32,357 nt of DNA from a virus, in IMG/VR virus record IMGVR_UViG_3300042945_001164, positions 1-32,357 of that record; one strand, given 5' to 3'. The stretch's first letter is position 1, and every line of letters starts with the position of its first letter. The notes under the pieces were generated by a model. It was not told where the DNA came from. It searched no databases and saw nothing but the letters and a program-made list of their open reading frames with translations. Position numbers and translations under genes: made by a program. Of this stretch, positions 1,792 through 30,224 are shown piece by piece.

Positions 1792-1794
1792 AAA

Positions 1795-4575: not shown

Positions 4576-4578
4576 AAA

Positions 4579-6099: not shown

Positions 6100-6100
6100 A

Positions 6101-8653
6101 ATGGCCATATATGAGTTAAGAACAACATCAAGTGGCGAGGTAATAAATTTAATATCATGGGATGGTATAACAGATTTGAGCTTACCGTCTGGAACAGAAT
6201 TGGTAGAAGCAACAAGTTCTGTATCATCATCGTGGACTGGTTCATTTGAATCATCTTCCGTTTCTTTATATGCTGGTAATTTTTATGGAAGCACCTATGG
6301 TTCATTATTTGGATCAGGTTCTGGTTCATTTACTGGATCATTTAATGGTTACTCTGGATCATTGGTTGATTTTGTAGATGGAGCAGTTTTATTTATATCT
6401 GGCGCAAGAAGTGGTAATTTTACTGGATCTTTATCCGGTTCATTAACCGGTTCGTTTGAAGGAAATGCATCTGGTTCATTTACTGGATCTTTCTCTGGTA
6501 GTAGTGTAATAAGTGATATTACACAAATTAGAAATGCTCTTATAGTATCTGGTGCTTTAAATATAACTGGCAGTTTCATAATAAATGGAAGTTCGTATAC
6601 AGATTCAACATCTGGTACAAGTGGAACTTCTGGTACTGCAGGTACAAGTGGAACTGCCGGAACATCTGGAACTGCCGGAACATCTGGAACGTCTGGAACT
6701 GCCGGTACAAGTGGAACTCCTGGTTCATCTGGAACGTCTGGAACTGCCGGTACAAGTGGAACTCCAGGTTCAAGTGGGACATCTGGAGCTAATGCATTAT
6801 GGAACTTTTTAGGTGCGTGGTCTGGTGGTCAAATTTATATTATTGGGGATGTTGTAACACATGGTGGTGAAACTTGGTATTGTATTCAATATGCACCATC
6901 TGGTTATGGTCCATTTGGTGGTTACATTGATGTATATTGGACTTTAATCGCGGCATCAGGAACTGCGGGTACTTCAGGTACTTCAGGTGTTTCAGGTTCA
7001 GATGGTTCTTCAGGTTCAAGTGGAACAAGTGGTACATCTGGAACCGCAGGAACATCTGGAACTGCCGGTACAAGTGGAACATCCGGAACTCCCGGTACAT
7101 CGGGTACATCAGGTCAAGATGGTGTGAGCGGTGGTCAAAATTATTTTATCAACTATACCGTATCATCCGATGTAAGTCCATATAAAACACTTGGTAGATT
7201 AACAACAACTGGCTCACAACAATCTATTACAACTAATTTAACTGCTAATCAAACCGGTGTATTGGTTGATGGTGGATTTATGACTGTTGCTGGTGATTCA
7301 AATACAACCGTGATACCAAACGGTTTATGGCATGGATATTTTTACTTTACAAAAAATACAAGTGGAGATAATGTAAATATCTACTATACCGTTTCAAAAT
7401 ACAGTAATACTGGCGTTAAAACTGCATTATTCACTTCTGATACAGTTGAAATCGGTTGGTCTAACAATAATACCACACCGGTTGAAATTAAAATAAATGC
7501 AGTTGCAACATCTGCCGCTTTAAGTTCTACCGATAGAATTATATTAGACATATATGCAGATAATGTTGATAATCAAAATAGAACTATAACATTTTATACC
7601 GAAGGTACATTCCACTATTCTTATCTTGTAACTACGATTGCTGCACCATCTGGAACATCTGGAACGTCTGGAACTGCTGGCACATCAGGAACTCCTGGTT
7701 CAAGTGGAACATCCGGAACTGCCGGTACAAGTGGAACACCGGGTTCATCTGGAACATCCGGAACTGCCGGTACAAGTGGAACACCGGGTTCATCTGGAAC
7801 ATCTGGCATAAAAGGTGATGCAGGAACAAGTGGAACATCCGGAACTGCCGGTACAAGTGGAACTCCCGGTTCATCCGGAACATCGGGTATAACCGGTGAT
7901 CCAGGAACATCTGGTACAAGTGGAACATCTGGAACTCCCGGTTCATCCGGAACATCCGGTATAACCGGTGATCCGGGAACATCTGGTACAAGTGGAACAT
8001 CTGGAACTCCCGGATCATCCGGAACTTCTGGTCTTACTGGTAATCCAGGAACATCTGGTACAAGTGGAACTTCTGGTCTTACTGGTAATCCAGGAACAAG
8101 TGGAACATCTGGAACTGCCGGTACAAGTGGAACTGGATTTTCAACGGTATCTAATACCGGAAATGATAGAATACTAACATCAGACGGTACTGCAAATGCA
8201 GCGGTAGCTGAAAATAATTTATCGTTTAATGGATCAACTTTATCCGTGACTGGATCTATAAACATGGGAACTGGATCTGTAGTGAATCCATTACTAACGG
8301 GATATTATGAAACTATGGTATCGAAATCCGTAGCCAATGATTTTGGTGGTGGTATAGTTAATATAGATTTAAGACAAGGTAATGTCTATAAATTAAAATT
8401 AGATGCTAGCGTATTAGATTTCAACATACAAAATAATCCAACATCATTACAAGCCGGTACTTTTACATTGGTTTTAGAAGGAGATGGAACTGCAAGAGCA
8501 TTTAATTGGGGTACAGAAGTAACTTGGCCAAATGGAGCACCTGCAATCGTAAGTGGATCGGGTGTGATTGATGTATATTCCTTTGTATCATTTAATAGTG
8601 GAACGGAATATTTGGGATTAGTTATTACACAAAATCAAACAGGATTAGTATAA
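6101..8653 (+). CDS. Modular tail fibre with carbohydrate-binding-like insert
   Basis: 850 residues. ATG is preceded by GGAGG (6090-6094) inside the end of the previous gene. Module order: 1-40 shared N-terminal module (YELRTTSSGEVINLISWDG); ~45-165 Gly-Ser-Phe-Thr repeats; 172-229 first G-T-S/G-T-A/G-T-P array; ~230-286 a small domain with ALWNFLGAWSGGQIYIIGDV, GGETWYCIQ and a closing YWTLI, the pattern of CBM5/12-type chitin-binding modules; 287-338 second array; ~340-515 a beta-sandwich-like domain; 518-679 third array; ~680-850 a C-terminal beta domain (NVYKLKLDASVLDFNI, then VTWPNGAP) resembling ends of other marine phage fibres. It lacks the glycine-rich tip of its three upstream neighbours, so it probably contacts a different ligand or is a structural fibre. 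Ligand and fold are inferred. Confidence 0.85.
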   Translation: MAIYELRTTSSGEVINLISWDGITDLSLPSGTELVEATSSVSSSWTGSFESSSVSLYAGNFYGSTYGSLFGSGSGSFTGSFNGYSGSLVDFVDGAVLFISGARSGNFTGSLSGSLTGSFEGNASGSFTGSFSGSSVISDITQIRNALIVSGALNITGSFIINGSSYTDSTSGTSGTSGTAGTSGTAGTSGTAGTSGTSGTAGTSGTPGSSGTSGTAGTSGTPGSSGTSGANALWNFLGAWSGGQIYIIGDVVTHGGETWYCIQYAPSGYGPFGGYIDVYWTLIAASGTAGTSGTSGVSGSDGSSGSSGTSGTSGTAGTSGTAGTSGTSGTPGTSGTSGQDGVSGGQNYFINYTVSSDVSPYKTLGRLTTTGSQQSITTNLTANQTGVLVDGGFMTVAGDSNTTVIPNGLWHGYFYFTKNTSGDNVNIYYTVSKYSNTGVKTALFTSDTVEIGWSNNNTTPVEIKINAVATSAALSSTDRIILDIYADNVDNQNRTITFYTEGTFHYSYLVTTIAAPSGTSGTSGTAGTSGTPGSSGTSGTAGTSGTPGSSGTSGTAGTSGTPGSSGTSGIKGDAGTSGTSGTAGTSGTPGSSGTSGITGDPGTSGTSGTSGTPGSSGTSGITGDPGTSGTSGTSGTPGSSGTSGLTGNPGTSGTSGTSGLTGNPGTSGTSGTAGTSGTGFSTVSNTGNDRILTSDGTANAAVAENNLSFNGSTLSVTGSINMGTGSVVNPLLTGYYETMVSKSVANDFGGGIVNIDLRQGNVYKLKLDASVLDFNIQNNPTSLQAGTFTLVLEGDGTARAFNWGTEVTWPNGAPAIVSGSGVIDVYSFVSFNSGTEYLGLVITQNQTGLV
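6614..6787 (+). repeat. Gly-Thr-Ser/Ala/Pro array 1
   Basis: 58 codons of Gly-X-Y triplets (GTS, GTA, GTP, GSS), placed between the Gly-Ser-Phe-Thr shaft and the CBM5/12-like domain. It contains Pro, unlike the array in the gene at 1795. Confidence 0.9.
6959..7114 (+). repeat. Gly-Thr-Ser/Ala array 2
   Basis: 52 codons of Gly-X-Y triplets linking the CBM5/12-like domain to the following beta-sandwich-like domain. The first part (GTSGVSGSDGSSGSSG) uses TCA serine codons more than the other arrays do, suggesting a separate origin. Confidence 0.9.
7652..8137 (+). repeat. Gly-Thr-Ser/Ala/Pro array 3
   Basis: 162 codons of Gly-X-Y triplets. A higher-order unit (GTPGSSGTSG followed by GTAGTSG, ITGDPG or LTGNPG) recurs several times with near-identical DNA, for example the blocks around 7880-7960 and 7945-8025. 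This indicates recent duplication within the array. Confidence 0.9.
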
Positions 8654-8666
8654 AAGGAGTTTTAAA

Positions 8667-11600
8667 ATGGTTGGTAATAATGTAAGAAATGCTGCTTTAA
8701 CATCATATCCTGGTTATGTTGCTCCACCAATTCCAAGTTTATTATATGGTTGGGGAAATAATGTAACTGCACAATTAGATAATAATTCAAGTGGTTTATA
8801 TGAAAATCAAAGAGGTAATTTTAACACTTGGGTATCTAGCAGTTATGTTGCCCAACAGGTTTTTGCAATAAAATCCGATGGGACACTTTGGAGTTGGGGT
8901 AGTGGTAATAATGGTGGTTATGAGAGTACCGATAGATCATCACCTATACAAGTTGGAAATGAAACAAATTGGTCAAAAATAAGTGTTGGTTTTAATCTAA
9001 GTCATGGAATGTTTATTAAGTCAGATGGATCACTTTGGGGCTATGGAAACAATAGCAACGGTCAATTAGGTGATAATAACTCCTCCGATGTTTCCAATAG
9101 AAGCTATATGATACAGGTTGGAAGTTTAAAGAATTGGAGTCAAGTTACTTGTGGTGGTTCACACACTATGGCTGTAAAAACAGATGGTACTCTGTGGGGT
9201 TGGGGGCTTAATACTCAAGGGCAACTGGGTGTTAATAATAATATTACTAGGTCATCTCCTGTTCAAATTGGATCATTAACAAATTGGTCATTTGTTTCGG
9301 CTGGTGCTTCATATACCATGGCTATAAAAACCGATGGTACACTTTGGGGTTGGGGACTAAATTCATTTGGTCAAGTCGGTGATAATACTGCTATAACCCG
9401 ATCATCTCCTGTTCAAATTGGAACGGGTACAAATTGGAGTAAAGTGACAACGGGAGCATCACACACAATGGCTGTAAAAACAGATGGAACGATTTGGACT
9501 TGGGGTAGTAATAATAATGGTGAATTAGGATTCTCTACGGGTGGTGCAACCAGATCATCTCCAGTCCAAGTGGGTTTATTAACAAATTGGAAAGATGTAT
9601 ATGCAACAGTTGATAATTTTGGAATGGGTGCATCTATAAAGACAGATGGAACTATTTGGTTTTGGGGTAATAATGGCAGTGGTGGATTTGGTAATGGTAA
9701 CTTTATATCTACTACATCTCCAGTCCAAATCGGAACTGAGTATTGGCAAACTTTGGGTTTAAGATCAAATGCATTTGTAGGCATTAAAACGGATGGGACG
9801 TTATGGGAATGGAACGCTAATAATGGTCTTACTTGGCTAAATAGTGTTGTGTCACCAACGACTCTAACATCCTTTACCGATTGGAAATCTGCTTCAACTG
9901 GTCTATCGCACACTATGGCTATAAAAACAGATGGCACTCTTTGGGCTTGGGGTGTTAATAATTTAGGACAGTTGGGAGACGGAACTGAAATTGCAAGACA
10001 ATCTCCAGTTCAGATAGGATCTGGGACAGATTGGGATAATGTATCATGTGGCAGTGATCATAGTGCGGCTGTTAAAACAAATGGAACACTTTGGTCTTGG
10101 GGTGCTAATAGTGGTGGAGCACTTGGACACAATAACCAAACCACTCGTAGTAGTCCAATTCAAGTAGGATTATTAACAAATTGGTCAAAAGTTTTTTGCG
10201 GTCAATCATTTACAATGGCTATAAAAACAGATGGGACACTTTGGGCTTGGGGTCTTAATCTTATTGGACAATTAGCAGATCCAATGCCTGTAAACAGATC
10301 ATCCCCAATACAGATTGGCACTGCAACAAATTGGAAATCTGTTGCTCCCGCTATAGGCGGTTCACATACAATGGGTGTACAAACCAATGGTACATTATGG
10401 GGTTGGGGACTTAATAGTAGTGGTCAATTAGGTAGGAATAACGCAGTTAGTAGTGCAACTCCTACACAAGTGGGAACAGATACAGATTGGGATAGTGTAT
10501 CTACGGCATATTCATTTACAATGGCTATAAAAACAAACGGAACTATGTGGGCGTGGGGTAATAATGGTAATAATACATTGGGAATAATGCGAACACCTAG
10601 ATTGCCATTTCCTGTTAATACATCATTAACAAATGTTTCCGATATGATTGCTGGAGATAGTTATACTATGGCTATTGCTTCGGATGGTGCCCTTTGGGGA
10701 TGGGGATTAAATTCTGCTGGTTCATTGGGTGTTGGTAATACTGTTACTAGATCATCTCCTGTTCAAATTGGATTATTAACAAATTGGTCAAAAGTTTTTG
10801 CAGGCATATCACAAACTATGGCTATAAAAACCGATGGTACACTTTGGGGTTGGGGATTAAACTCATCTGGTCAAGTCGGTGATAATAGTATTTTAGGTAA
10901 ATCATCTCCTGTTCAAATAGGTACAGGCACTGATTGGCAAACAGTAGGATGTGGAACTGCACATACATTTGGAATAAAAACAAACGGAACACTTTGGGCA
11001 TGGGGAAATAATGTATTTGGACAATTAGGCGATGGTACAATAATAAACCGATCATCTCCTGTTCAAATCGGAACAGATACAAATTGGTCAAAAGTATCAG
11101 GTGGTACAGGACATACCATTGCATTAAAAACAAATGGAACACTTTGGGCATGGGGACTTGATGATAGATACCAATTAGGAATTAGTTCAAACTCAAATAA
11201 ATTACAAAAAATTGGAACCAATACTGACTGGTCTATTTTACCAACTGGATCACCTGGATCACATGTAATGGCAATTAAGTCCGATGGTACTCTTTGGGGG
11301 TGGGGATTAAACTCATCTGGTCAAGTCGGTGATAATAGTGCTATAACTCGATCATCTCCTGTTCAAATTGGAACGGGTACAAATTGGAGTATATTGAGTT
11401 TGGGTGCTTCACATACAATGGCTATAAAAACAGATGGAACTATTTGGGGATGGGGGAATAATAACAGAGGTCATTTGGGTGATAATACACTAATAAACAG
11501 ATCATCTCCTGTTCAAATTGGAACAGATACAAATTGGAGTAAATTGAGTTCGGGTAACTCACATACAATGGCTATAAAAACAAACGGAACACTTTGGGCT

Positions 11601-12962
11601 TGGGGTAATAATGCCTTTGGACAGCATGGTGATGGTAATACTATAAATAAATCATCTCCTGTTCAAATAGGAAGTGATGTTGATTGGAGTGAAATTGCAA
11701 CAACCGATACAACATCAATGGGAATTAAAACCAATGGTACACTTTGGGGGTGGGGTTTTGATAGATTTGGAATATTGGGATTGAATATAGCTGCTGGTTT
11801 TACATCTTTAACAAATTCACCAATTCAAGTAGGAACTGATACAAATTGGTCAAAGGTATCATTGGGTGTGTCTCACACAATTGCACTAAAATCTAATGGT
11901 ACATTATGGGCTTGGGGTAATAATGAAAATGGCAGTCTTGGTGACAATACAATCATAAACATATCATCTCCTGTTCAAATAGGAACCGATACCGATTGGA
12001 CATTTATTAGTGCGGGTGCGTTTCATACATTAGCACTAAAATCCAATGGTACTCTATGGAATTGGGGATCTGGAACATCAGGACAACTTCCAGATGGGCG
12101 CATTATGACATTATCTTCACCAACGCAAGTTGGGAGTTTAACCAATTGGTCAAAAATTTATTCGGGAAGATTTCATTCGGTGGCGATAAACACATCGGGT
12201 GAAATCTATACACTTGGTATAAATAGTAGTATATCTATAACTGTTAATGAATTTAGTCGCTCATCTCCAGTTCAAATTGGTACAGACACAGATTGGTCTG
12301 ATATTTCAGCATATTCAAATAATAGTGGAGCAATAAAAACAAACGGAACACTTTGGGTTTGGGGAAATGGTAATGAAGGACAACTTGGCCAAAATGATAG
12401 GTTCTCTCAATCTTCGCCAACACAGATTGGAACTGGTACAGATTGGTCATATTTTCCAAAATTGGGAGCAAGAAGATGGGGTCTTATGGCAACAAAAACT
12501 GACGGAACTACTTGGGGCTCTGGATATGGATTTGATGGTGCATATGCTGATGATACAAATATATCAAGATCATCACCGATTCAGATTGGAAGTATTGCTT
12601 GGTCAAAAATAACATCTGGATTTCATACAATTGGCATGGATTCTAGCGGTAGTCTGTACTCATGGAATCAGAGTAGTGGTAATAGTGCTATATTAGGTAG
12701 AGAGACTGAACTCGGTCAAAATAGATCATCTCCTGTACAAGTTGGATCAGCCACAAATTGGGTTAGTTCATCACTTGGTTCAAATCATACAATGGCTATA
12801 AAAACAGATGGTACTCTTTGGGGGTGGGGTAATAATACTGCATTTCAAATGGGTGATGGGACTACACGAAGTAGGTCATCACCAGTTCAAATTGGAACTG
12901 CAAGTGGATATAAAACAGTTGATTGTGGTGTGTCATACACAATTGCGATTAAAGAAGAATAA
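8667..12962 (+). CDS. Giant RCC1-type beta-propeller repeat protein (28 blades)
   Basis: 1431 residues, the longest gene here. Strong Shine-Dalgarno AAGGAG at 8654-8659, 7 bases before ATG. After ~28 residues the whole protein is RCC1-type repeats of ~50 residues: DGTLWGWGLNSSGQLGD, then RSSPVQIGT, TNWSKV and GxSHTMAIKT. I count 28 strands of the DGxLWxWG type, from LLYGWGNN near residue 30 to DGTLWGWGNNTAFQ near 1395. The final GVSYTIAIKEE would complete the opening half-blade. RCC1 propellers have seven blades, so 28 fits four propellers; that grouping is inferred. No signal peptide, membrane helix or catalytic motif is visible. Its position after four fibre genes suggests a virion surface or host-binding protein. 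A secreted or intracellular binding protein is the alternative. Confidence 0.8.
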   Translation: MVGNNVRNAALTSYPGYVAPPIPSLLYGWGNNVTAQLDNNSSGLYENQRGNFNTWVSSSYVAQQVFAIKSDGTLWSWGSGNNGGYESTDRSSPIQVGNETNWSKISVGFNLSHGMFIKSDGSLWGYGNNSNGQLGDNNSSDVSNRSYMIQVGSLKNWSQVTCGGSHTMAVKTDGTLWGWGLNTQGQLGVNNNITRSSPVQIGSLTNWSFVSAGASYTMAIKTDGTLWGWGLNSFGQVGDNTAITRSSPVQIGTGTNWSKVTTGASHTMAVKTDGTIWTWGSNNNGELGFSTGGATRSSPVQVGLLTNWKDVYATVDNFGMGASIKTDGTIWFWGNNGSGGFGNGNFISTTSPVQIGTEYWQTLGLRSNAFVGIKTDGTLWEWNANNGLTWLNSVVSPTTLTSFTDWKSASTGLSHTMAIKTDGTLWAWGVNNLGQLGDGTEIARQSPVQIGSGTDWDNVSCGSDHSAAVKTNGTLWSWGANSGGALGHNNQTTRSSPIQVGLLTNWSKVFCGQSFTMAIKTDGTLWAWGLNLIGQLADPMPVNRSSPIQIGTATNWKSVAPAIGGSHTMGVQTNGTLWGWGLNSSGQLGRNNAVSSATPTQVGTDTDWDSVSTAYSFTMAIKTNGTMWAWGNNGNNTLGIMRTPRLPFPVNTSLTNVSDMIAGDSYTMAIASDGALWGWGLNSAGSLGVGNTVTRSSPVQIGLLTNWSKVFAGISQTMAIKTDGTLWGWGLNSSGQVGDNSILGKSSPVQIGTGTDWQTVGCGTAHTFGIKTNGTLWAWGNNVFGQLGDGTIINRSSPVQIGTDTNWSKVSGGTGHTIALKTNGTLWAWGLDDRYQLGISSNSNKLQKIGTNTDWSILPTGSPGSHVMAIKSDGTLWGWGLNSSGQVGDNSAITRSSPVQIGTGTNWSILSLGASHTMAIKTDGTIWGWGNNNRGHLGDNTLINRSSPVQIGTDTNWSKLSSGNSHTMAIKTNGTLWAWGNNAFGQHGDGNTINKSSPVQIGSDVDWSEIATTDTTSMGIKTNGTLWGWGFDRFGILGLNIAAGFTSLTNSPIQVGTDTNWSKVSLGVSHTIALKSNGTLWAWGNNENGSLGDNTIINISSPVQIGTDTDWTFISAGAFHTLALKSNGTLWNWGSGTSGQLPDGRIMTLSSPTQVGSLTNWSKIYSGRFHSVAINTSGEIYTLGINSSISITVNEFSRSSPVQIGTDTDWSDISAYSNNSGAIKTNGTLWVWGNGNEGQLGQNDRFSQSSPTQIGTGTDWSYFPKLGARRWGLMATKTDGTTWGSGYGFDGAYADDTNISRSSPIQIGSIAWSKITSGFHTIGMDSSGSLYSWNQSSGNSAILGRETELGQNRSSPVQVGSATNWVSSSLGSNHTMAIKTDGTLWGWGNNTAFQMGDGTTRSRSSPVQIGTASGYKTVDCGVSYTIAIKEE

Positions 12963-14850: not shown

Positions 14851-14877
14851 GTTATACTTATAGTAACGGAGAAATAA

Positions 14878-15330
14878 ATGTCTTATGCAAGAGTAGAAGA
14901 TGGTAAAATAGTACAACGTTCTGAATTGTTACCTAATAGTTGGGATAACATATCTAATTTTAATACTTTAAATAAAGAAGAAATAACAAATCATGGTTGG
15001 TATGTTCACAAGTTTATAGAGGCTGAAAAATTTGACGGATACATCTATGACGGAACAACATATTCCATAGAAAACAATGAAGTAGTAGAATATGAACAAG
15101 TTCGTCAAAAAACCACAGAAGAAATGGATTCTGAAATAGAATCTAAATGGATTGAAATACGGTCTCAAAGAAATATTCTTTTAATGGAATGTGATTGGAC
15201 ACAGTTACCAGATTCACCACTAACTAATCAAAAACAAACGGAATGGCAAATATATCGTCAGTCTTTGAGAGATATGACAAATGCTGATAGTCCTTATGGT
15301 ATATCTTGGCCACCAAAACCAGAGGCATGA
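14878..15330 (+). CDS. Tail fibre assembly chaperone-like protein (Phage_tail_APC)
   Basis: 150 residues. ATG is preceded by CGGAGA at 14867-14872. The C-terminal ~50 residues carry the signature of the phage tail assembly chaperone family (Pfam Phage_tail_APC): RNILLMECDWTQLPDSPLT, then WQIYRQSLRDM and WPPKPEA. The N-terminal half (YARVEDGKIVQRSELLP, then GWYVHKF) resembles the small beta domain often found before it. In many phages such proteins are encoded next to fibre genes and assist fibre folding or attachment; in others the same domain is part of the fibre itself. Its position shortly after five large receptor-binding-type genes fits a chaperone or fibre-tip accessory. Confidence 0.75.
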   Translation: MSYARVEDGKIVQRSELLPNSWDNISNFNTLNKEEITNHGWYVHKFIEAEKFDGYIYDGTTYSIENNEVVEYEQVRQKTTEEMDSEIESKWIEIRSQRNILLMECDWTQLPDSPLTNQKQTEWQIYRQSLRDMTNADSPYGISWPPKPEA

Positions 15331-15331
15331 A

Positions 15332-16054
15332 ATGAATAAATCCGTATTAAAATTGATACGAGAAATGAATTTATCTATATTCACCGAAGAAGAATTGGTA
15401 GATAAAGAAATAATTGTTTTGTTTCCTGGAAATTTTCAACCAATGGGACAACATCAAAGGGAAGAATACCAAAGACTTTGCCGTAAATTTGGAAAAGATA
15501 ATGTTATAGTTGTAACCGATGATAAAATAGATCAACAAAAACATCCTTTTTCATTTGATGAAAAGGTTACAATAATGAAAAGACATGGTGTTAAAAATGT
15601 TGAAAAGGCATTAAACCCATTCTATCCAACAGAAGTTATTTCAAAAATGGATGAAACTAATACGGTTTTAATAATTGCGGTTAGTCAAAAAAATATTTCG
15701 GAATTAAAACAAATAAAAAGATTGACACGATATAATGGTTCAGCAAATTTAACAATAAAAGATATTCAAAATCCCTACATCTATTATATGATAACAAATG
15801 ATGTGGATTATGATATACCCAGTGTAGGAAAATTAAATTTTAAAAATATACAAAGAGCACTTGGTGATAGAGATGCAAAATTATCCGAGTTGAAATCTAG
15901 ATTCATTTCAATATTTGGTTGGTTTGATGCGAAAATTTTTAATATGGTAATTCATAAAATGAATACGGATAGAGGAGACATGGTAGAGAAATCAAATCCG
16001 TTAAGTTTGGTTACTAGAACATTTTGGAAAAAAGTTTACAATGAAATAAAATAA
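15332..16054 (+). CDS. Nucleotidyltransferase-like protein with degenerate motifs
   Basis: 240 residues. I place the start at ATG 15332, one base after the preceding stop and 6 bases after AGAGG (15321-15325). The same frame is open back to an ATG at 15281, but that lies deep inside the chaperone gene. Residues 26-42 (EIIVLFPGNFQPMGQHQ) match the first strand and signature loop of the cytidylyltransferase-like (HxGH) superfamily, as in NMN adenylyltransferases (GRFQPxHxGH). Here the first His is Gly39 and the second is shifted and followed by Gln. The second signature, ISxTxxR, would fall near VGKLNFKNIQRALGDRD and is also not canonical. Related genes occur in T4-like phages of aquatic bacteria. 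The fold is likely; enzymatic activity is uncertain. Confidence 0.65.
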   Translation: MNKSVLKLIREMNLSIFTEEELVDKEIIVLFPGNFQPMGQHQREEYQRLCRKFGKDNVIVVTDDKIDQQKHPFSFDEKVTIMKRHGVKNVEKALNPFYPTEVISKMDETNTVLIIAVSQKNISELKQIKRLTRYNGSANLTIKDIQNPYIYYMITNDVDYDIPSVGKLNFKNIQRALGDRDAKLSELKSRFISIFGWFDAKIFNMVIHKMNTDRGDMVEKSNPLSLVTRTFWKKVYNEIK

Positions 16055-16064
16055 AGGTTATGTT

Positions 16065-16688
16065 ATGGAAATTAAAATTGATAGTATAAAAGATGTTAAA
16101 AATCTTTTAGAAGGAAACCATGAAAGTCAAAACAAGATTCAAGTTGGATTTGATGGAGAAAAAAAAGAACAGAATATTGATAGACAAGTTGGTGAAAAAT
16201 GGTTTGATTCAGATGGAAATGAATGGGAGCAAAAGAAGGGATATAAAGTTAAACTCGGAAAAGTATGGCAACAAGAATTACATGAATATTTAAATTCATT
16301 TCCAAACTGTCCAAAAGAAAGTTGTACTTGTGGAATGCCAAAAAGACTTGATGAAAAAATGAGAAAAATTCATGGTATGTGTTTTGATTGTGTTGTTAAG
16401 ATGGAACATAAAATTAGAATAGAAGGAAAATGGCAAGAATACGAAAAGACTAAAATGAAAGAAAATGCTTTGGCTTGGTTAAAAGAAGCTGAACGTGATA
16501 AAAATTTAATAGTAGAGGAACTTTCAAGACTAGAGTTTGCTAATGAATTTGGTGATGTTGAAAAGTGGGACACCAAAGTAAACAAAGAAGAACTGTTAAA
16601 AAAAATTGAAGATGAGTTCCAAACTTTTAGAACTGATTTCATAGAAAAGTTAGAAAAGGATTTAGAGAATATGAATGAAACGGAATAA
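16065..16688 (+). CDS. Hypothetical protein with Cys cluster and coiled coil
   Basis: 207 residues. ATG is preceded by AAAGG (16053-16057). I do not recognise a named family. Visible parts: a charged N-terminal region (1-60) with RQVGEKWFDSDGNEWEQKKG; a central cysteine cluster CPKESCTCGMPKRL followed ~20 residues later by MCFDCVVKME, a spacing that could hold one zinc ion; and a long Lys/Glu-rich helical C-terminus (~125-207) likely to be a coiled coil. No signal peptide or membrane helix. Its end overlaps the start of the holin-like gene by 14 bases. It could be a small DNA- or protein-binding accessory protein; no function is claimed. Confidence 0.7.
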   Translation: MEIKIDSIKDVKNLLEGNHESQNKIQVGFDGEKKEQNIDRQVGEKWFDSDGNEWEQKKGYKVKLGKVWQQELHEYLNSFPNCPKESCTCGMPKRLDEKMRKIHGMCFDCVVKMEHKIRIEGKWQEYEKTKMKENALAWLKEAERDKNLIVEELSRLEFANEFGDVEKWDTKVNKEELLKKIEDEFQTFRTDFIEKLEKDLENMNETE

Positions 16689-20076: not shown

Positions 20077-20448
20077 ATGAAATACGTTATAGCATTATTA
20101 TTTTCCCTTTCAACTGCTTTTGCTTCCGAAAAAGATTCTCTCGTTTGTTTTACAAAACCTGAAATAACTAAATTGTGGAATAAAATTCAACTCATACGAG
20201 ATTCAGTCGAATACCTAACCGCAGTCGTTAATGTCCAAGACACCGTAATAGATTTGTATGTTTCTAGATCAGAAATGTTTATACAACAATTAAAAAATCG
20301 TGATGAAGCACTTGCCGCTTGTAAAAAAAGAAGTGTGGAATTAGAAAAAATAATTGATGAACTTCAACCTCGTTGGTATGATAATAAATTTTTGTGGTTT
20401 CTAACAGGAGCCGCTTCTGTTGTTGGGATAATAGTGGTAACAAAATGA
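20077..20448 (+). CDS. Secreted coiled-coil protein with C-terminal membrane helix
   Basis: 123 residues. The N-terminus is a clear signal peptide (MKYVIALLFSLSTAFA with Ala-x-Ala before Ser17). A helical coiled-coil region follows (~28-97) with cysteines at 24 and 82. A C-terminal hydrophobic segment (FLWFLTGAASVVGIIVV, ~105-121) would anchor it in the membrane. There is no lipobox, so it is not a classical o-spanin; a unimolecular or otherwise divergent spanin is possible. Its stop overlaps the terminase start as ATGA (20445-20448), so the two are translationally coupled. It occupies the place where a small terminase might be expected, but signal peptide and membrane helix argue against that role. 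Confidence 0.6.
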   Translation: MKYVIALLFSLSTAFASEKDSLVCFTKPEITKLWNKIQLIRDSVEYLTAVVNVQDTVIDLYVSRSEMFIQQLKNRDEALAACKKRSVELEKIIDELQPRWYDNKFLWFLTGAASVVGIIVVTK

Positions 20449-22031
20449 GTGTAGTTACAAAAAATTTAAAAGATATTATCAAAGAAGAATACGCAAAATG
20501 TGCTTCTAATCCTGTATATTTTATGAAAAGATATGCAAAGATTCAACATCCAACTCGTGGCAAAATACTGTTCGACCTATATCCGTTTCAGGAAAATGTT
20601 TTAAAAGAGTTCAATGATAATCGATGGAACATAGTCCTAAAATCTCGTCAGTTAGGAATATCAACGCTGATAGCTGGATATTCACTTTGGATGATGTTGT
20701 TCAATCAAGACAAGAATATTCTTGTTATTGCAACAAAACAAGAAACTGCTAAGAACTTGGTAACAAAAGTTCGTGTTATGTATGACAATCTTCCAAGTTG
20801 GTTGAAGACAGGAGTTCAAGAAGATAATAAACTTTCACTTCGATTCAAGAACGGTTCACAAATTAAAGCCGTTTCTGCTGCTGCTGACTCTGCTCGTTCT
20901 GAAGCACTTTCACTTTTGATTATAGATGAAGCCGCTTTTATTGATGACATAGATAGAATATGGGCATCTGCACAACAAACACTTGCAACAGGTGGAACTG
21001 CAATTATCAATTCCACACCGAATGGCGTTGGTAACTTTTACCATAAACAATGGGTAAAGTCAAAATTAGGTGAGAGTGCATTTAATCCAATAGAATTACT
21101 TTGGCAAGTTCATCCAGACCGTGATCAAAAATGGCGTGATGAACAAGATGTTCTTCTTGGTCCAGATATGGCAAAACAAGAATGTGATGGAAACTTTCTT
21201 GCATCTGGACGTTCTGTAATTGATGGTGAGTTAGTACAATGGTATAAGGAAACATATGTTTGTGATCCAAAAGAAAAAAGAGGATCTGAAGACGCTTATT
21301 GGATTTGGGAATATCCAGATTCTTCAAAAAATTATATTGTTGTTGCTGATGTTGCTCGTGGTGACGGAAATGATAATTCTGCATTTCATGTAATTGATAT
21401 AGATAATCTTGAACAAGTTGCAGAATATCGTGGTAAACTTGATACAAAATCATATGGTAATATGTTAGTATCAGTTGCAACCGAATATAATGATGCAATG
21501 CTTGTTATTGAAAATGCTAATATTGGTTGGGCAGTAATTCAACAAGTTATAGATAGAGGTTATCCAAATTTGTATTACACTTATCGTGAAGATGGATATA
21601 TCGATCCATCCGTTCATATTCCAAAAGGATATGATATTAAAGATAAATCACAAATGGTTCCTGGATTTACTACAAGTTCTAAAACAAGACCACTTATTAT
21701 ATCTAAATTGGAAACATATTTTCGTGAAAGAACACCAATAATAAAATCATCTAGATTAGCAGAAGAACTTTTCGTATTTGTATGGAATGGATCAAAAGCG
21801 GAGGCACAAAGTGGTTACACTGATGATTTGGTAATTTCATTTTCAATCGGATTGTGGGTTAGAGATACTGCAATAAAATTGCGTCAAGAGGGATTGGTAC
21901 GAACAAGAATGGGATTGGATTATATTGGAAAGGGAAGTGCAATAAAATCCACAATACAAAATAAATTCGATGATGGGTGGTCTATGAAAGTTAGAGGAGG
22001 GGATGAAGATTTAACTTGGTTAATAAAGTAA
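20445..22031 (+). CDS. terL: Large terminase subunit (gp17-like)
   Basis: 528 residues from ATG 20445, which overlaps the previous stop. The frame is open further upstream from a GTG at 20394, but that extension lies inside the previous gene. ATPase domain: YPFQENVLKEF; Walker A-like SRQLGIST (67-74), the T4-type variant; Walker B LLIIDEAAF (157-165); and a coupling-type INSTPNGVGNFYH (188-200). Nuclease domain: ADVARGDGNDNSAF with D302, VIENAN with E356, and YTDDLV with D460/D461, matching the acidic triad of RNase H-like terminase nucleases. It pumps concatemeric DNA into the prohead through the portal and cuts it at headful. Length is shorter than T4 gp17 (610). The portal gene follows 59 bases later. 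Confidence 0.95.
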   Translation: MSVVTKNLKDIIKEEYAKCASNPVYFMKRYAKIQHPTRGKILFDLYPFQENVLKEFNDNRWNIVLKSRQLGISTLIAGYSLWMMLFNQDKNILVIATKQETAKNLVTKVRVMYDNLPSWLKTGVQEDNKLSLRFKNGSQIKAVSAAADSARSEALSLLIIDEAAFIDDIDRIWASAQQTLATGGTAIINSTPNGVGNFYHKQWVKSKLGESAFNPIELLWQVHPDRDQKWRDEQDVLLGPDMAKQECDGNFLASGRSVIDGELVQWYKETYVCDPKEKRGSEDAYWIWEYPDSSKNYIVVADVARGDGNDNSAFHVIDIDNLEQVAEYRGKLDTKSYGNMLVSVATEYNDAMLVIENANIGWAVIQQVIDRGYPNLYYTYREDGYIDPSVHIPKGYDIKDKSQMVPGFTTSSKTRPLIISKLETYFRERTPIIKSSRLAEELFVFVWNGSKAEAQSGYTDDLVISFSIGLWVRDTAIKLRQEGLVRTRMGLDYIGKGSAIKSTIQNKFDDGWSMKVRGGDEDLTWLIK

Positions 22032-22090: not shown

Positions 22091-23983
22091 ATGGCAGAAA
22101 GAAAGTCATTATTTGATAGATTAAAAACCTTATTTTCTACAAATGTTGTTGTTAGAAATGTTGGTGGAAAACGATTAAAAGTTGTTGATACGGCTCGTTA
22201 TCAGGCCGATGGAAACCCACATACATCAAAAGTTATTGATAGATATGGTAGACTTCATGGAAGTAGGGGAACCCCAATATCTGTCTACAATCAATACAAT
22301 TCTTTCTCTGCAACAAAAATAGACCTTTATACTGATTATGAAGCAATGGACACTGATGCCATTATTTCATCGGCTCTTGACATTTATTCCGATGAAAGTA
22401 CCCTAAAAAATGACATCGGTGATGTTCTAACAATTAGAACTGATAACGATAATATCCGTAAAATTCTTCGTAATCTTTTTTATGATATTCTTAATATAGA
22501 ATATAATCTGTGGCCTTGGGTTCGTAATTTATGTAAATACGGTGACTTTTATCTTTATCTTGATGTAAAAGAAGGATTAGGTATAACAAATGTTGTACCG
22601 TTCTCACCTTATGAAATGCAAAGAGAAGAAGGAACTGATCCAGAACATATCTATATGACAAAGTTTATCTATGAAGGTCCACTCGGAAAGGGTGAATTTC
22701 AGAATTATGAAATTGCACATTTTCGTTTAATGGGCGATACTAATTTTTTACCTTACGGTAAATCTATGGTAGAGGGTGCTCGTAAATTGTATAAACAATT
22801 AGTTCTCATGGAAGATGCTATGCTTATACATAGAATTATGAGGGCACCGGAAAAAAGAGTATTCAAAGTTGATATTGGAAATATACCGCCTGGTGAAGTA
22901 GATACTTACATGGATCAAATAATGAAAAAGATGAAAAAAGTTCCTGTAATGAACGAACAAACCGGTGAGTATAATTTAAGATTTAATATGCAAAATTTAT
23001 TAGAAGACTATTATCTTCCAGTAAGAGGTGCTCAATCAGCAACAAGTATAGATACTTTGCCAGGATTACAATATCAAGCAATAGAAGACGTTGAATATTT
23101 AAAAAGTAAAATATTTGCTGCTTTGAAAATACCAAAGGCGTTTTTAGGATATGACGAATCAACGGAAGGTAAGGCAACACTTGCGGCTCTTGATATTCGT
23201 TTTGCAAGAACAATAGAGAGAATACAAAGGATAGTAATATCAGAATTAACTAAAATTGCAATAGTTCATTTGTATTCACAAGGTTATGAGAATGCAGACC
23301 TTGTAAACTTTGAACTATCATTGACTAGTCCATCGATAGTATATGAACAAGAAAAAGTTGCTCTTATGAAAGAAAGAGTAGATTTGGCATCACAGTTGAT
23401 AGAAAATAAATTATTCTCAATGAAGTACATATATTCAAACATATTCAATTTGTCTGATGATGAAGCAGAATTTGAAAGAAATGAAATATTAGAAGACATT
23501 AAACATAAATTCCGTCAATCACAAATTGAAAGTGAAGGAAATGATCCTGCAATAACTAAGGAATCATTTGGAACTCCACATGATATTGCAACAATGCATA
23601 CATCCGGTGGTGGTTCTTCAAAGATGTACCAAATAAATGATAATGAAGTTCCAGATGGTGGATGGCCAGGTGCAGGTAGACCTGCAAAAAATCTTTCATA
23701 TTCTACCGATGATAGTCCATTTGGTCGTGATCCAATAGGAAAAAAAGATGTGGGAAATACATTAAAAACTAACAGAAGTATGAAACATAACTATAAGAAC
23801 AATTCCCCATTATCATTAGAAACAAAGATGATGTCACATGATGTTGATAAATTGATAGATAGTATGAACGGATTTAAAGTAAAAACAAAAAAAATTATAT
23901 CGGAAAGTCTTAAACCTGTTAATTTTGATGAAGAAAATGAATCAAATTTATTAAATGAAAACAATTTATTGAAGGAATTGTAA
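22091..23983 (+). CDS. Portal protein (gp20-like)
   Basis: 630 residues. It matches T4-type portal proteins in order: an N-terminal LFDRLKTLF; YTDYEAMDTDAIISSALDIY (~108-127); WVRNLCKYGDFYLYLDV (~142-158); the FRLMGDTNFLPYGKSMVE region (~215-232); APEKRVFKVDIGNIPPGEVD (~252-271), a hallmark of gp20; and KIPKAFLGYDESTEGKATLA (~347-366). The last ~130 residues are a low-complexity polar tail longer than in T4 gp20 (524 residues), with GGWPGAGRP and several SL/NNLL segments. It forms the dodecameric ring at the head vertex, through which the terminase packages DNA, and starts prohead assembly. Position directly after the terminase fits a head operon. Confidence 0.95.
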   Translation: MAERKSLFDRLKTLFSTNVVVRNVGGKRLKVVDTARYQADGNPHTSKVIDRYGRLHGSRGTPISVYNQYNSFSATKIDLYTDYEAMDTDAIISSALDIYSDESTLKNDIGDVLTIRTDNDNIRKILRNLFYDILNIEYNLWPWVRNLCKYGDFYLYLDVKEGLGITNVVPFSPYEMQREEGTDPEHIYMTKFIYEGPLGKGEFQNYEIAHFRLMGDTNFLPYGKSMVEGARKLYKQLVLMEDAMLIHRIMRAPEKRVFKVDIGNIPPGEVDTYMDQIMKKMKKVPVMNEQTGEYNLRFNMQNLLEDYYLPVRGAQSATSIDTLPGLQYQAIEDVEYLKSKIFAALKIPKAFLGYDESTEGKATLAALDIRFARTIERIQRIVISELTKIAIVHLYSQGYENADLVNFELSLTSPSIVYEQEKVALMKERVDLASQLIENKLFSMKYIYSNIFNLSDDEAEFERNEILEDIKHKFRQSQIESEGNDPAITKESFGTPHDIATMHTSGGGSSKMYQINDNEVPDGGWPGAGRPAKNLSYSTDDSPFGRDPIGKKDVGNTLKTNRSMKHNYKNNSPLSLETKMMSHDVDKLIDSMNGFKVKTKKIISESLKPVNFDEENESNLLNENNLLKEL

Positions 23984-25728: not shown

Positions 25729-26397
25729 ATGAAAGAATTATTAATAGATACGATGTTGTTTAACGTCAGTCCACAACAAATAGCTGAAAGCCAGAATAGT
25801 AATGGTAAAGTTATAGTATCTGGCGTTCTACAAAGAGCAGAAGCAAAAAACCAAAACGGTAGAGTATATCCGAAACAAATATTGATGCGAGAAGTAAAAA
25901 AATATCAAGAGAATCAGATAAAAGAAAACCGTGCTCTTGGGGAATTGGATCATCCAGAATCTTCTGTAATAAATCTTCGTAACGTATCACACAATGTTTT
26001 GTCTGTGGAATGGAAGGGAAATGATGTTGTTGGAACAGTTGAAATATTACCAACACCGTCTGGAAATATATTAAAAGAATTATTAAAATGTGGTATAAGA
26101 TTGGGGATAAGTTCAAGGGGAATGGGAACTGTTGAAGAAATAAACGAAGGAACCGTTGAAGTACAAGATGATTTTGAATTGATAGGGTGGGATTTCGTTT
26201 CTAATCCATCAACTCATGGCGCATTCATGTACCCAAATAGAAGAAATAAAAATGTAAATGAATCTTTGATACAAGAAAACATCAGTTTAAATACAATTTC
26301 ACAAATTGATCCTAAAATGCAAAGAATACATAAAAACATAACAAACATTATATGTGAAATTGGTAATGTTTGTGAATGTATATTTGATGGGAGATAA
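25729..26397 (+). CDS. Prohead core protease (gp21-like)
   Basis: 222 residues, close to T4 gp21 (212). It has the herpes/HK97/T4 prohead-protease pattern: VSGVLQRAEAKNQNGRVYPK (31-49+); RALGELDHPESS with catalytic His75; strand VVGTVEILPTPSGN; and IRLGISSRGMGTVE with nucleophile Ser128 or Ser129. DFELIGWDFVSNPSTHGAFM (148-167) follows. After head assembly the enzyme degrades the scaffold and trims capsid proteins; the T4 enzyme cuts after (Leu/Ile)-x-Glu. Its own C-terminal part contains such a site (IQE, 181-183), which may be used for self-processing. Neighbouring head genes on both sides agree with the role. Confidence 0.93.
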   Translation: MKELLIDTMLFNVSPQQIAESQNSNGKVIVSGVLQRAEAKNQNGRVYPKQILMREVKKYQENQIKENRALGELDHPESSVINLRNVSHNVLSVEWKGNDVVGTVEILPTPSGNILKELLKCGIRLGISSRGMGTVEEINEGTVEVQDDFELIGWDFVSNPSTHGAFMYPNRRNKNVNESLIQENISLNTISQIDPKMQRIHKNITNIICEIGNVCECIFDGR

Positions 26398-26399
26398 TA

Positions 26400-26999
26400 A
26401 TGCCTGCTTCATCTCAACAACAACAAAAACTTATGGGTTTGGCGCTTTCATATAAAAGAGGAAACGTATCAAGTTCAGAAGTCAGTTCTACCGTAAAAAA
26501 GTTAGCAGATTCAATGTCAGAAAAAGACTTAGAAAAGTATGCAGGAACATCACATAGGGGTTTACCTAAAAAAGTTGGTGAAACGAAAATAAAAGTTGAA
26601 GATTTAAAAAAGATGGTTCAAGATGCAGTAGAAGAAGTCATGCATGAAAGACTTTCTATGAAAAAATTGACGCCAGAACAAAAACAAAGATACATCGAAT
26701 CAATCGGTAGATTTAATGAATATAAAGAACCAATATACAGATCAAAACAACTTGCAGAGACAGTTAATGAAATAAGAAATATTGTAGAGTTTGCTTCTAA
26801 AAATATGGTAGAAGAATCTGGAGATTGGTTTGAAGGAATATCACATAGAAGAAATTCAAAAAAATTAAAAGAATCATTTGCTTTATTTGAAAAAACAACT
26901 GATAAAATAATTAAGTTACAATCAACACTTGAATCTATTTATGAAGGAATGGGTAGATATTTAAGTAAATTTTATGAAATAAAAGATAAGGAAAAGTAA
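26400..26999 (+). CDS. DUF3008-domain protein with helical extension
   Basis: 199 residues. ATG is preceded by GGGAG (26389-26393). Residues 1-57 match the DUF3008 pattern: PASSQQQQKLMGLALSYKRG, then LADSMSEKDLEKYAGTSHRG and LPKKV. DUF3008 normally makes up a whole small bacterial or phage protein. Here it is extended by a ~140-residue helical domain with an amphipathic Lys/Glu pattern (KVEDLKKMVQDAVEEVMHER, then EIRNIVEFASKNMVEESGDW). It lies between prohead protease and bS21, in the head cluster, so a core or internal-head role is possible. Function unknown. Confidence 0.75.
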   Translation: MPASSQQQQKLMGLALSYKRGNVSSSEVSSTVKKLADSMSEKDLEKYAGTSHRGLPKKVGETKIKVEDLKKMVQDAVEEVMHERLSMKKLTPEQKQRYIESIGRFNEYKEPIYRSKQLAETVNEIRNIVEFASKNMVEESGDWFEGISHRRNSKKLKESFALFEKTTDKIIKLQSTLESIYEGMGRYLSKFYEIKDKEK

Positions 27000-27002
27000 G
27001 TT

Positions 27003-27233
27003 ATGACAGACAGAGTATATGCTCCGGGATCAAAACCTGCCCATGTAAAAGTAAAAGCAAATGGAATGGACATTGATTCAATGATTAGAATATTCAAAAG
27101 AAAAGTAAAAGAAGCGGGAATACTTGAAGAATATAAAGATAGGATGGAATACATAAAACCATCGAAAAGAAAAGTTGAAAGAAAAAATGCCGCAATTCGT
27201 AGGCAAAGAAAAATGGACTCGGAAAATAAATAA
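27003..27233 (+). CDS. rpsU: Ribosomal protein bS21 homologue
   Basis: 76 residues, ATG 3 bases after the previous stop, with AAGGAAAAG (26988-26996) upstream. Residues 14-68 follow the bS21 pattern: VKVKANGMDIDSMIRIFKRK (strand then helix), then VKEAGILEEYKDRMEYIKPS and KRKVERKNAAIRRQRK, with the basic second helix. bS21 is the 30S protein near the anti-Shine-Dalgarno region of 16S rRNA, and its homologues are known to be encoded by a range of aquatic phages, where exchange into host ribosomes is proposed. The ~14-residue N-terminal extension (MTDRVYAPGSKPAH) is longer than in typical bacterial bS21. A location inside the head cluster implies late expression. The family call is firm; the effect on the host is inferred. 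Confidence 0.88.
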   Translation: MTDRVYAPGSKPAHVKVKANGMDIDSMIRIFKRKVKEAGILEEYKDRMEYIKPSKRKVERKNAAIRRQRKMDSENK

Positions 27234-27256: not shown

Positions 27257-27299
27257 GAAATACAATACCCTATCAAATTAAGAATCAATATAATATCTT

Positions 27300-27327
27300 A
27301 AATATATGGGGTTCATATATTTTTTTT
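27300..27327 (+). terminator. Terminator-like hairpin between bS21 and scaffold genes
   Basis: A perfect 9-bp stem, AAATATATG (27300-27308) with CATATATTT (27314-27322), loop GGGTT, followed by a run of T to 27327. It has the shape of an intrinsic terminator but is almost entirely A-T, so strength is doubtful. It could also be a leader hairpin affecting scaffold expression. Confidence 0.45.
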
Positions 27328-27371
27328 GTTGATTGATGTTTAATAATAACATCAAATAGTTGGAGATTTTT

Positions 27372-28553
27372 ATGAATGATTTACTTAAAGAAGCAATAGC
27401 AGATGCAAAAGCAGTTCGTGAAGTTGCACTTGCAAATGCTAAACTTGCTTTAGAAGAAGCATTTACGCCAAAACTGCAATCAATGTTATCAAAAAAACTT
27501 TCTGAAGAAGCTGAAATGGATGATGATTCCAAAGAAGTAGAAGAAGAAGGTTACTCTAATGAGTTTGCAATGGATGAAGCCGAAGAAGAGACAGCCCTTG
27601 AAAAAGAAGGATATTCTGATGAATTTTCAATGGAAGAAGCTGAAAATGAAGATGAAATGGACATCGATGAGTTTTTTGGTGAAGCAGAAGATTCTGAAGA
27701 AGATTCCGGTGAAGCAGATTTAGAAGAAAGAATACATCAACTTGAACAATCCTTGGCAAAACTTGAAGGAAAAGATTCCGATGAAGAATCCATGGAAGAA
27801 GCAGAAGAATCAGAAGATTATTCTGATGAAGAAGATATTGATGAAGATTTGATGGAAATAATACGTCAATTAGAAGAAGATATTGATTCATCCGGAATTG
27901 GTACTGGTGATAATAAAAAACCATCTCCTGTTGCATCAGACGATAGCACAGAAGATAAAAAAGAGAAGTTGGTTCAATTAGTTAATGAAGAAGACGATGA
28001 AAAAACCGATGATATTGATGAAATGATTCGTTCTATACGTGAAGAAGATGAAGAATCCAAAGAAAAAATGGATGAGGCAGAAGATGACGAAGAAACTGTT
28101 GATATTAAGGAGATTTTGCGTGCTCTTCGTGAAGAAGAAGAAGAATCAAAAGAAAAAGTAGATGAAGGTGAAGACGAAGAAAAAGAAAAGGAAGTATCAG
28201 AAGCAAAATTGCGTGAAGCATATGCAGTTATTACTTTCCTTCGTTCAAAAATAAACGAAGTAAATCTTTTAAATTCAAAATTACTTTTCTCTAATAAAAT
28301 TTTCAAAAAGTATTCTTTAACTGAAAATCAAAAGTATACGGTCATTGAAAACTTTGATCGTGCATCAAGTTTGCGTGAAGTGAAGCTTGTATATGCAACT
28401 CTTTGTGAGGCAATTAAATCAACAAAATCAAATATTAAGCCAATCAAAGAATCATTTGCAAGTAAACCGATTGCAAGTACCCGTCCTAAAAACATCATAA
28501 ATGAAGGTGATAATATGGCGGATCGTTTAAGACATTTAGCTGGTTTAAAATAA
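27372..28553 (+). CDS. Prohead core scaffold protein (gp22-like)
   Basis: 393 residues from ATG 27372, with GGAG at 27362-27365 (spacing 6). A TTG at 27360 in the same frame overlaps the ribosome site and is rejected. The protein is extremely acidic and helical, as expected of T4-type scaffold, with a helical N-terminus (LLKEAIADAKAVREVALANA). Internal duplications are visible: EEGYSNEFAMDEAEEE versus KEGYSDEFSMEEAENE (~55-100), and DEMIRSIREEDEESKEKMDE versus KEILRALREEEEESKEKVDE (~215-275). The C-terminal ~110 residues are less acidic (LREAYAVITFLRSKINEVNL) and end RLRHLAGLK, likely the capsid-contacting part. It would be degraded by the prohead protease after assembly. Position between protease and capsid gene matches T4 order 21-22-23. 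Length exceeds T4 gp22 (269) because of the acidic region. Confidence 0.88.
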   Translation: MNDLLKEAIADAKAVREVALANAKLALEEAFTPKLQSMLSKKLSEEAEMDDDSKEVEEEGYSNEFAMDEAEEETALEKEGYSDEFSMEEAENEDEMDIDEFFGEAEDSEEDSGEADLEERIHQLEQSLAKLEGKDSDEESMEEAEESEDYSDEEDIDEDLMEIIRQLEEDIDSSGIGTGDNKKPSPVASDDSTEDKKEKLVQLVNEEDDEKTDDIDEMIRSIREEDEESKEKMDEAEDDEETVDIKEILRALREEEEESKEKVDEGEDEEKEKEVSEAKLREAYAVITFLRSKINEVNLLNSKLLFSNKIFKKYSLTENQKYTVIENFDRASSLREVKLVYATLCEAIKSTKSNIKPIKESFASKPIASTRPKNIINEGDNMADRLRHLAGLK

Positions 28554-28571: not shown

Positions 28572-30224
28572 ATGAGTATACAATCTCTTTTAGGTGCTAG
28601 TGGTAATCCCCATAAGCGTCTTATCGAAGAAAATCGTGGTATTGTTAAGAAATGGCAAAAATCAGGTCTTCTTGACAACATCAATAACGATTATGAAAAG
28701 AACTCCATTGCAGTTCTTTTGGAAAATCAAGCAAAACAACTTATTGAAGAATCAAACCGTACAGGTACAGCAGCCGGTTCAGAAGAATGGGCAGGCGTTG
28801 CACTTCCGTTGGTTCGCCGTATTTTCTCTGAAATTGCTGCGAAAGATTTCGTGTCAGTTCAACCTATGAACTTACCATCAGGTCTTGTATTCTTCTTGGA
28901 TTTCAAATATGGTACATCACAACCTGGCTTTACTGCAAATGCAGGTAAAGATTCACAGACAGATTCATTGTTCGGTGTGACAGGTAAAGACGCTAAAAAC
29001 GCTGATCCTTCAGGCGGTCTTTATGGTGCAGGTCGTTTTGGTTATTCAATCAATGAAGCAACAAGTGGAACATTAACAAATGGTGCTCTTGCTGTTGATA
29101 AAATCGTAACTGGTTCAGTAAGTCATGCTACACCAAGCACATATCAACACGATACTGAGTTTGAAAATGCTTATTCAGCATCTCTTGCAGCTGGAAATAT
29201 TTACACAGTAACTATTTCTTCATCTGCTCTTGGAACAGCTGGTGTAACTGATGCTGATTTTGAGGCAGTCCGTGCTTTTGTAGTTAGTGGTTCTGGTATT
29301 GCAGAATATTTTCCACAATACACTTATACAAATGCTGCAAATTCACAAATTACATTCGTTGTTAGATCAACAATCGGTGTTGTAAATGCAGTTATCAAAT
29401 ATGAGAAACAACCAACTGCTACAAGTCGTGGTGACTTTGAAGATCAATTAGGTGGTGCAGCTCTTGACATTCCTGAAATCAATCTTGAATTGCGTTCAGA
29501 ATCTATTGTTGCTAAAACACGTAAGTTGAAGGCAGTATGGACACCTGAATTTGCACAAGATTTGAATGCATACCACTCAATCGATGCAGAAGCTGAATTG
29601 ACATCAATGTTGTCTGAATACATTTCACAAGAAATTGATTTGGAAATTCTTGATATGTTGATTAAGAATGCACAAACAACAGAAAGATGGTCTGCTCGTA
29701 TCGGTCGTACTTATGATGGTGCTACTGGAACATTTACAGATTATGCTACCGCTCAAGCTGCTGCTTCTGCGTTTAACCAACAAACATGGTTCCAAACACT
29801 CGGTACAAAGATTCAAAAAGTATCAAACACAATTCATCAGAAAACACTTCGTGGTGGTGCAAACTTCCTCGTATGTTCTCCACAAGTTGCTACACTTCTT
29901 GAATCAATGCCTGGCTATGCAGTTGATGGTGAAGGTATGAAATTTGCAATGGGTGTACAAAAAGTTGGTCAGTTGAATGGTCGTATCACAGTCTATAAGA
30001 ATCCTTATATGCTTGAAAACCAAATTCTTGTAGGTTTCCGTGGAAGTCAATTCCTTGAAACAGGTGCTGTGTACGCTCCGTACATTCCACTTGTAATGAC
30101 ACCTTTGGTATACGATCCATCAAACTTCACACCAAGAAAAGGCGTGATGACTCGCTATGCTAAGAAGATTGTTCGTCCAGAGTTCTATGGTCTTATCCAA
30201 ATCGATTCTCTCGGTGACATCTAA
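28572..30224 (+). CDS. Major capsid protein (gp23-like)
   Basis: 550 residues, close to T4 gp23 (521). ATG is preceded by AAGGA at 28560-28564. Residues ~45-115 show the family core: AVLLENQAKQLIEESNRTG, then WAGVALPLVRRIFSEIAAKD and FVSVQPMNLPSGLVFFLDFK YG. Later segments also match: KTRKLKAVWTPEFAQDLNAY (~316-335), LTSMLSEYISQEIDLEILDM, GGANFLVCSPQVATLLESMP (~432-451), and a C-terminal VMTRYAKKIVRPEFYGLI. It forms the hexamers of the head shell. The protease specificity (Leu/Ile)-x-Glu predicts removal of an N-terminal propeptide after LIE (57-59) or IEE (58-60). Arginine is almost always CGT here, unlike the AGA-rich fibre genes, consistent with very high expression. A strong terminator follows. 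Confidence 0.96.
   Translation: MSIQSLLGASGNPHKRLIEENRGIVKKWQKSGLLDNINNDYEKNSIAVLLENQAKQLIEESNRTGTAAGSEEWAGVALPLVRRIFSEIAAKDFVSVQPMNLPSGLVFFLDFKYGTSQPGFTANAGKDSQTDSLFGVTGKDAKNADPSGGLYGAGRFGYSINEATSGTLTNGALAVDKIVTGSVSHATPSTYQHDTEFENAYSASLAAGNIYTVTISSSALGTAGVTDADFEAVRAFVVSGSGIAEYFPQYTYTNAANSQITFVVRSTIGVVNAVIKYEKQPTATSRGDFEDQLGGAALDIPEINLELRSESIVAKTRKLKAVWTPEFAQDLNAYHSIDAEAELTSMLSEYISQEIDLEILDMLIKNAQTTERWSARIGRTYDGATGTFTDYATAQAAASAFNQQTWFQTLGTKIQKVSNTIHQKTLRGGANFLVCSPQVATLLESMPGYAVDGEGMKFAMGVQKVGQLNGRITVYKNPYMLENQILVGFRGSQFLETGAVYAPYIPLVMTPLVYDPSNFTPRKGVMTRYAKKIVRPEFYGLIQIDSLGDI

Follow-up and report, generated by a model that had tools for sequence, protein, structure and literature searches.

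Among the ribosomal proteins that viruses encode, phage bS21 is the most frequent (PMC6375957). Mizuno and coworkers (2019) found that the bS21 of the pelagiphage HTVC008M enters the 70S ribosomes of E. coli and that translation drops to about 5% (PMC6375957). Chen and coworkers (2022) described 47 freshwater phage genomes in which bS21 lies among the terminase, portal, protease, and capsid genes, on the opposite strand; the gene was co-expressed with structural genes in metatranscriptomes, and a late takeover of the ribosome was proposed (PMC9723584). A prohead protease lies within ten genes 310 times among 900 published bS21 phages (PMC9723584). The occurrence of bS21 among head genes is an already published catalogue fact, and the hypothesis reached in a sequence-only reading of the DNA considered here, that a bS21 synthesized late from within the head cluster could bias ribosomes toward phage late messages, is a rediscovery, since both studies precede it.

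The window that we analyzed is the whole of a single IMG/VR virus record (32,357 bases), and it resembles the Bacteroidetes freshwater phages of Chen and coworkers in placing bS21 in the terminase, portal, protease, and capsid region, for which a late role has been proposed in those large phages. In contrast to their phages, whose bS21 gene runs opposite to the head genes and whose protein has an aromatic residue where Flavobacterium johnsoniae has Tyr54, the bS21 of this clade is co-directional with its neighbors, carries Arg or Lys at that position, and has a conserved N-terminal extension in a genome rich in Shine-Dalgarno (SD) leaders. HTVC008M provides another aquatic myovirus bS21, and one whose incorporation into E. 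coli 70S ribosomes is known (PMC6375957), but it is a host-related alphaproteobacterial sequence. RpsU of the Microcystis phage Mel-JY01 (PP395634, WWT39311) occupies the same operon slot, is 52% identical by tblastn, and has a similar N-terminal extension; it is annotated in the deposited genome, and no paper on it was found in the literature searched.

It is near certain that the product of the gene at 27003 to 27233 is bS21. The open reading frame begins with ATG and encodes 76 residues that score 48.8 bits against the Pfam Ribosomal_S21 profile (curated cut-off, 27) and 50.1 bits against the NCBIfam equivalog TIGR00030 (curated cut-off, 28.95), in both cases over nearly the full profile length; the protein also matches PHROG 21469, "ribosomal protein S21," and solved bS21 chains (best E value, 3.6e-6). 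The family and coordinates given by the sequence-only reading were therefore right, and the profile search that it proposed bore it out. In an alignment with the E. coli and F. johnsoniae proteins, the core columns of bS21 (KR..G...KP..A) are present, with K32, R33, G39, K52, P53, and A64 invariant, and the start is credible because the AAGGA sequence upstream is common to all 34 related loci (Table 1).

The surrounding genes follow the order of a T4-like head cluster, all in one direction: gp20 portal, S77 protease, DUF3008 gene, bS21, presumed scaffold, and gp23 capsid. The earlier placement of bS21 between protease and scaffold genes holds at the level of the cluster but not for the adjacent protease, since the DUF3008 gene intervenes. 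The scaffold assignment is presumed from an acidic composition and a place ahead of gp23, and the gene had no family match in profile searches; its in-frame ATG at 27372 stands behind TTGGAG, and a longer reading frame opens with TTG at 27360. bS21 lies within a few genes of the terminase, portal, prohead protease, and major capsid genes, and it follows the upstream open reading frame by 3 to 18 nt on the same strand in all 30 loci measured, Mel-JY01 included; given this position in the head operon, it is probably made together with the head proteins. Elsewhere in the window, a 1,431-residue protein of RCC1-like repeats (8667 to 12962; phrog_4219, 8.2e-148) adjoins collagen-repeat and glycine-rich tail proteins at 1 to 8653.

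Table 1. Features of the bS21 locus and the head gene cluster in the window
Feature	Coordinates	Strand	Evidence or remark
Terminase large subunit	20394..22031	+	phrog_2 4.2e-47, PF03237 9e-13
Portal protein gp20	22091..23983	+	PF07230 1.1e-71
Prohead core protease (S77, gp21-like)	25729..26397	+	PF03420 6.5e-30, phrog_207 2.1e-55
DUF3008 gene, immediate upstream neighbor of bS21 (3-nt gap)	26400..26999	+	PF11450 4.4e-14
AAGGA Shine-Dalgarno sequence of the bS21 gene	26988..26992	+	Ahead of the same start in 34/34 loci
Phage bS21 gene, 76 aa	27003..27233	+	PF01165 5.6e-13, TIGR00030 1.8e-13; 33 IMG/VR relatives and Mel-JY01
N-terminal extension (MTDRVYAPGSK; about 11 residues) with no counterpart in the cellular bS21 examined	27003..27035	+	phmmer alignment; conserved in 34 loci; pN/pS 0.33
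C-terminal segment after KPS, no aromatic residue; Arg at the F. johnsoniae Tyr54 position	27165..27230	+	Alignment with F. johnsoniae bS21 (7JIL)
Candidate terminator or attenuator: conserved hairpin and U run in the gap from bS21 to the scaffold gene	27267..27327	+	Alignments and fold
Acidic presumed scaffold/prohead core gene	27372..28553	+	Position before gp23, acidic composition
Major capsid protein gp23	28572..30224	+	PF07068 6e-79

The relatives comprise 33 loci from a scan of IMG/VR, with bS21 65 to 100% identical, together with Mel-JY01. An N-terminal extension had been noticed from the sequence and given as 14 residues; its existence and conservation stand, but its net length is about 11 residues, because residue 15 of the phage protein pairs with residue 4 of cellular bS21 in the phmmer alignment, where homology begins. 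It is kept in 34 of 34 loci, the divergent L032 to L034 and Mel-JY01 among them. The gene is under purifying selection: pN/pS is 0.13 over its whole length (146 pairs, calculated with a script that also scores one nonsynonymous step in multi-hit codons), 0.096 for codons 13 to 45, 0.17 for codons 46 to 75, and higher for the extension (Table 1), and loci L007 to L013 encode an identical protein despite up to 17 synonymous differences. bS21 is missing from the sister Flavobacterium phage immuto (NC_055915; L036 and L074 to L081), whose capsid protein is 54.6% identical, and the corresponding place holds an unrelated 75-residue open reading frame.

The next large open reading frame downstream of bS21 begins 8 to 18 nt away in about half of the loci and 95 to 138 nt away in the rest. 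About half of the clade has a hairpin with a U run; L007 and similar loci have no room for it, because the scaffold gene starts 10 nt past bS21. Across seven aligned loci, the 13 pairs of the hairpin are maintained in 98.7% of cells, and two of them show two-sided changes. It is a candidate only, since the fold of the longer stretch is not exceptional against shuffled sequences (z = -1.08) and it was missing from the output of a built-in terminator scan.

The residue that sets this clade apart faces the anti-SD sequence. In F. johnsoniae, Tyr54 of bS21 helps to hide the anti-SD, and in vitro the Y54A change gives about 3-fold more translation from an SD template (PMC9976891). The residue aligned with Tyr54 in the phage clade is Arg or Lys without a gap and Ile, Val, Arg, or Lys with a one-residue gap, and no locus of the clade has an aromatic residue there under either placement. 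SD-like motifs at -18 to -4 were counted with the same simple gene caller in the clade and in immuto, and they precede 63% of genes in the related genome G001, 48% in G002, 53% in G003, 36% in Mel-JY01, and 40% in the window, against 2 to 4% in control windows; these absolute fractions are probably underestimates, because each gene was assumed to begin at its first ATG. In immuto, which lacks bS21, the motifs occur on 4% of genes. A set of 21 loci with Bacteroidia-type phage bS21 has Tyr or His near position 54, in a KA.Y or KAAH motif (the fixed offset of the script misreads rows with KKC or KNT), and SD motifs occur on 0 to 17% of their genes, mostly 0. Cellular Bacteroidia likewise have Tyr or His at 54 and SD motifs on 2% of genes (six genomes, 85 genes); the other cellular Bacteroidota classes have Arg at 54, and in the pooled candidate-host class, that of G038, SD motifs occur on 28% of 296 genes (control, 8%).

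The promoters of the relatives indicate a host in the Bacteroidota. The motif TTG-N17..22-TAnnTTTG was found 10, 6, 3, and 19 times upstream of genes in G001, G002, G003, and Mel-JY01, where 0.55, 0.78, 0.47, and 0.87 were expected; it occurred 0 to 1 times on the antisense strand, and none of the four genomes had an excess of sigma-70 promoters. Two real cyanophages gave the reverse pattern, with no enrichment of the Bacteroidota promoter, and immuto, intended as a positive control, failed (0 observed, 0.27 expected). The signal is only at phylum level, because TTG-N-TATATTTG is about 1.7- to 1.8-fold more frequent than in the scrambled control in both SD-using and SD-blind cellular groups, and TAnnTTTG was dropped as a class marker. 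The Mel-JY01 record (PP395634.1; L002, L066 to L073, and L082) has 19 promoters of this type and, in its annotation as read, no photosynthesis gene; Microcystis elabens is given as its host, perhaps wrongly, and the real host may be a bacterium in a nonaxenic culture. SD leaders and the Bacteroidota promoter motif, which the bS21-bearing relatives have, are both lacking in immuto.

Class-level evidence comes from G002, a relative with bS21 that carries a tmRNA (tag GNTTSYAMAA), a tRNA-Leu, and a full groEL (L053:455-806 and 14861-16507). In this one relative, compared with 149 and 60 genomes in the two classes, the tRNA-Leu is 93% identical over 74 nt to one from the class of G038 (best in Bacteroidia, 81%), segments of the tmRNA are 98 to 100% identical over 41 to 46 nt in that class (one 34-nt match in Bacteroidia), and the best groEL match scores 765 bits against 630 bits in Bacteroidia. 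Together with the promoters, these similarities point to an SD-reading Bacteroidota class other than Bacteroidia, a better fit than the Bacteroidetes hosts of the phages of Chen and coworkers, with which the promoters agree only as to phylum. That this class is Ignavibacteria is a guess from G+C content, sequence type, and a published table that gives Ignavibacteria a value of 32, taken here as the percentage of genes with an SD (PMC10783764); the window's own host would be of the same class by extension from its relatives. The bS21 proteins of the candidate hosts and other non-Bacteroidia Bacteroidota share Arg54 with the phage protein, several also have its RRQ motif, and the genomes use SD sequences, but they have no N-terminal extension, and the phage clade is not nested among them.

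The bS21 phylogeny that had been proposed as a means of naming the host was rejected for this purpose: the phage clade is monophyletic (100/96, 100/100) on a long stem supported by few columns and falls outside every sampled cellular group. A first scan of cellular genome contigs yielded no close cellular source of bS21. A second scan was set aside, its list being biased because the search pattern misses the FKKKYE type; the top entry was a Cytophagales metagenome-assembled genome (L083, JAKSDE010000015.1; 42%) with Tyr at position 54. A profile search that ranked Flavobacteria first was discarded, since its alignment had included F. johnsoniae bS21. No CRISPR spacers were recognizable among the matches listed from 20-kb searches, which were genes, tRNA, and tmRNA.

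Several functions of the phage protein can be weighed against these data. According to the sequence-only reading, bS21 could adjust ribosomes to favor the translation of late phage mRNAs over others. This agrees both with the placement of the gene in an operon with the head genes and with data on related aquatic phages, in which bS21 is co-expressed late (PMC9723584). However, SD leaders in G001, G002, G003, and Mel-JY01 precede 50%, 46%, 45%, and 48% of genes within 15 kb of bS21 and 80%, 52%, 61%, and 36% of those more than 40 kb away; they are thus commoner far from the gene in three genomes, with Mel-JY01 mildly opposite, and because they are not concentrated near the head genes, selection of late messages through SD is unsupported. 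The residue facing the anti-SD, moreover, departs from Tyr only as the likely host's own bS21 does, and we regard late retuning as unlikely. The missing Tyr54 also led us to consider a switch in a Bacteroidia host with SD-blind ribosomes, whereby the phage bS21 would unmask the anti-SD and SD-bearing phage mRNAs would outcompete those of the host. The lack of an aromatic residue in phages with SD-rich genes, the effect of Y54A in F. johnsoniae (PMC9976891), and the Bacteroidota-type promoters are all in its favor, but SDs also precede genes with host-type promoters, which are presumably expressed ahead of bS21 (70% in G001, 33% in G002, 60% in G003, and 47% in Mel-JY01); a non-Bacteroidia class agrees better with the tRNA, tmRNA, and groEL of G002, and the candidate hosts already have Arg54 and use SDs, making a switch improbable.

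If bS21, a small and exchangeable protein, limited the recycling of 30S subunits late in infection, the phage might simply supply more of it, with no selective role for the extension; the conserved core and the more relaxed extension are compatible with plain dosage, whereas retention of the extension in every locus, however divergent, is not readily so, and we rate this as rather unlikely. A basic, nucleic acid-binding protein encoded among head genes might instead serve in capsid assembly or be packaged in the virion, and the sequence is indeed rich in Lys and Arg, but the full equivalog score, the conserved bS21 core, and the presence of the same head gene type without bS21 in immuto make such an extraribosomal role highly improbable. 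It is also a tentative and distinctly unlikely proposition that phage bS21 exists as two matched types, SD-blind with Tyr or His54 and SD-reading with Arg or Lys54, and that the extension of the latter, on the 30S platform, favors phage SD leaders over host mRNAs.

The best explanation as a whole, to which we give an even chance of being correct, is that the phage bS21 tops up or replaces host bS21 in an SD-competent 30S pool. The gene would be transcribed together with the head genes of this T4-like phage, probably late, and its product would enter host 30S subunits in place of, or besides, host bS21. Because its anti-SD pocket would remain SD-permissive in the manner of the host protein (Arg or Lys, as against the Tyr of Bacteroidia), the pool of SD-reading ribosomes would stay complete while head proteins are made in a burst and the host has presumably ceased to make its own bS21. 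The advantage would go to all phage messages, and not to late ones in particular, since SD leaders occur on 36 to 63% of phage genes and 28% of candidate host genes. Counting against this explanation are the hairpin with its U run, which in the window lies between bS21 and the presumed scaffold gene, the long stem of the phage clade outside the sampled cellular groups, and the origin of the tRNA, tmRNA, and groEL evidence in the single relative G002. Replacement, moreover, need not be beneficial, because the HTVC008M protein cut E. coli ribosomes to about 5% of their activity (PMC6375957).

What is new here is the contrast between a clade with Arg or Lys54 and SD-rich genomes and the sampled Bacteroidia phages with Tyr or His54 and rare SD motifs. 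Both groups carry bS21 in their head clusters, with opposite anti-SD pocket chemistry and opposite use of SD sequences, and this contrast makes the alternatives of a phage bS21 that matches the host ribosome and one that retunes it a testable choice.
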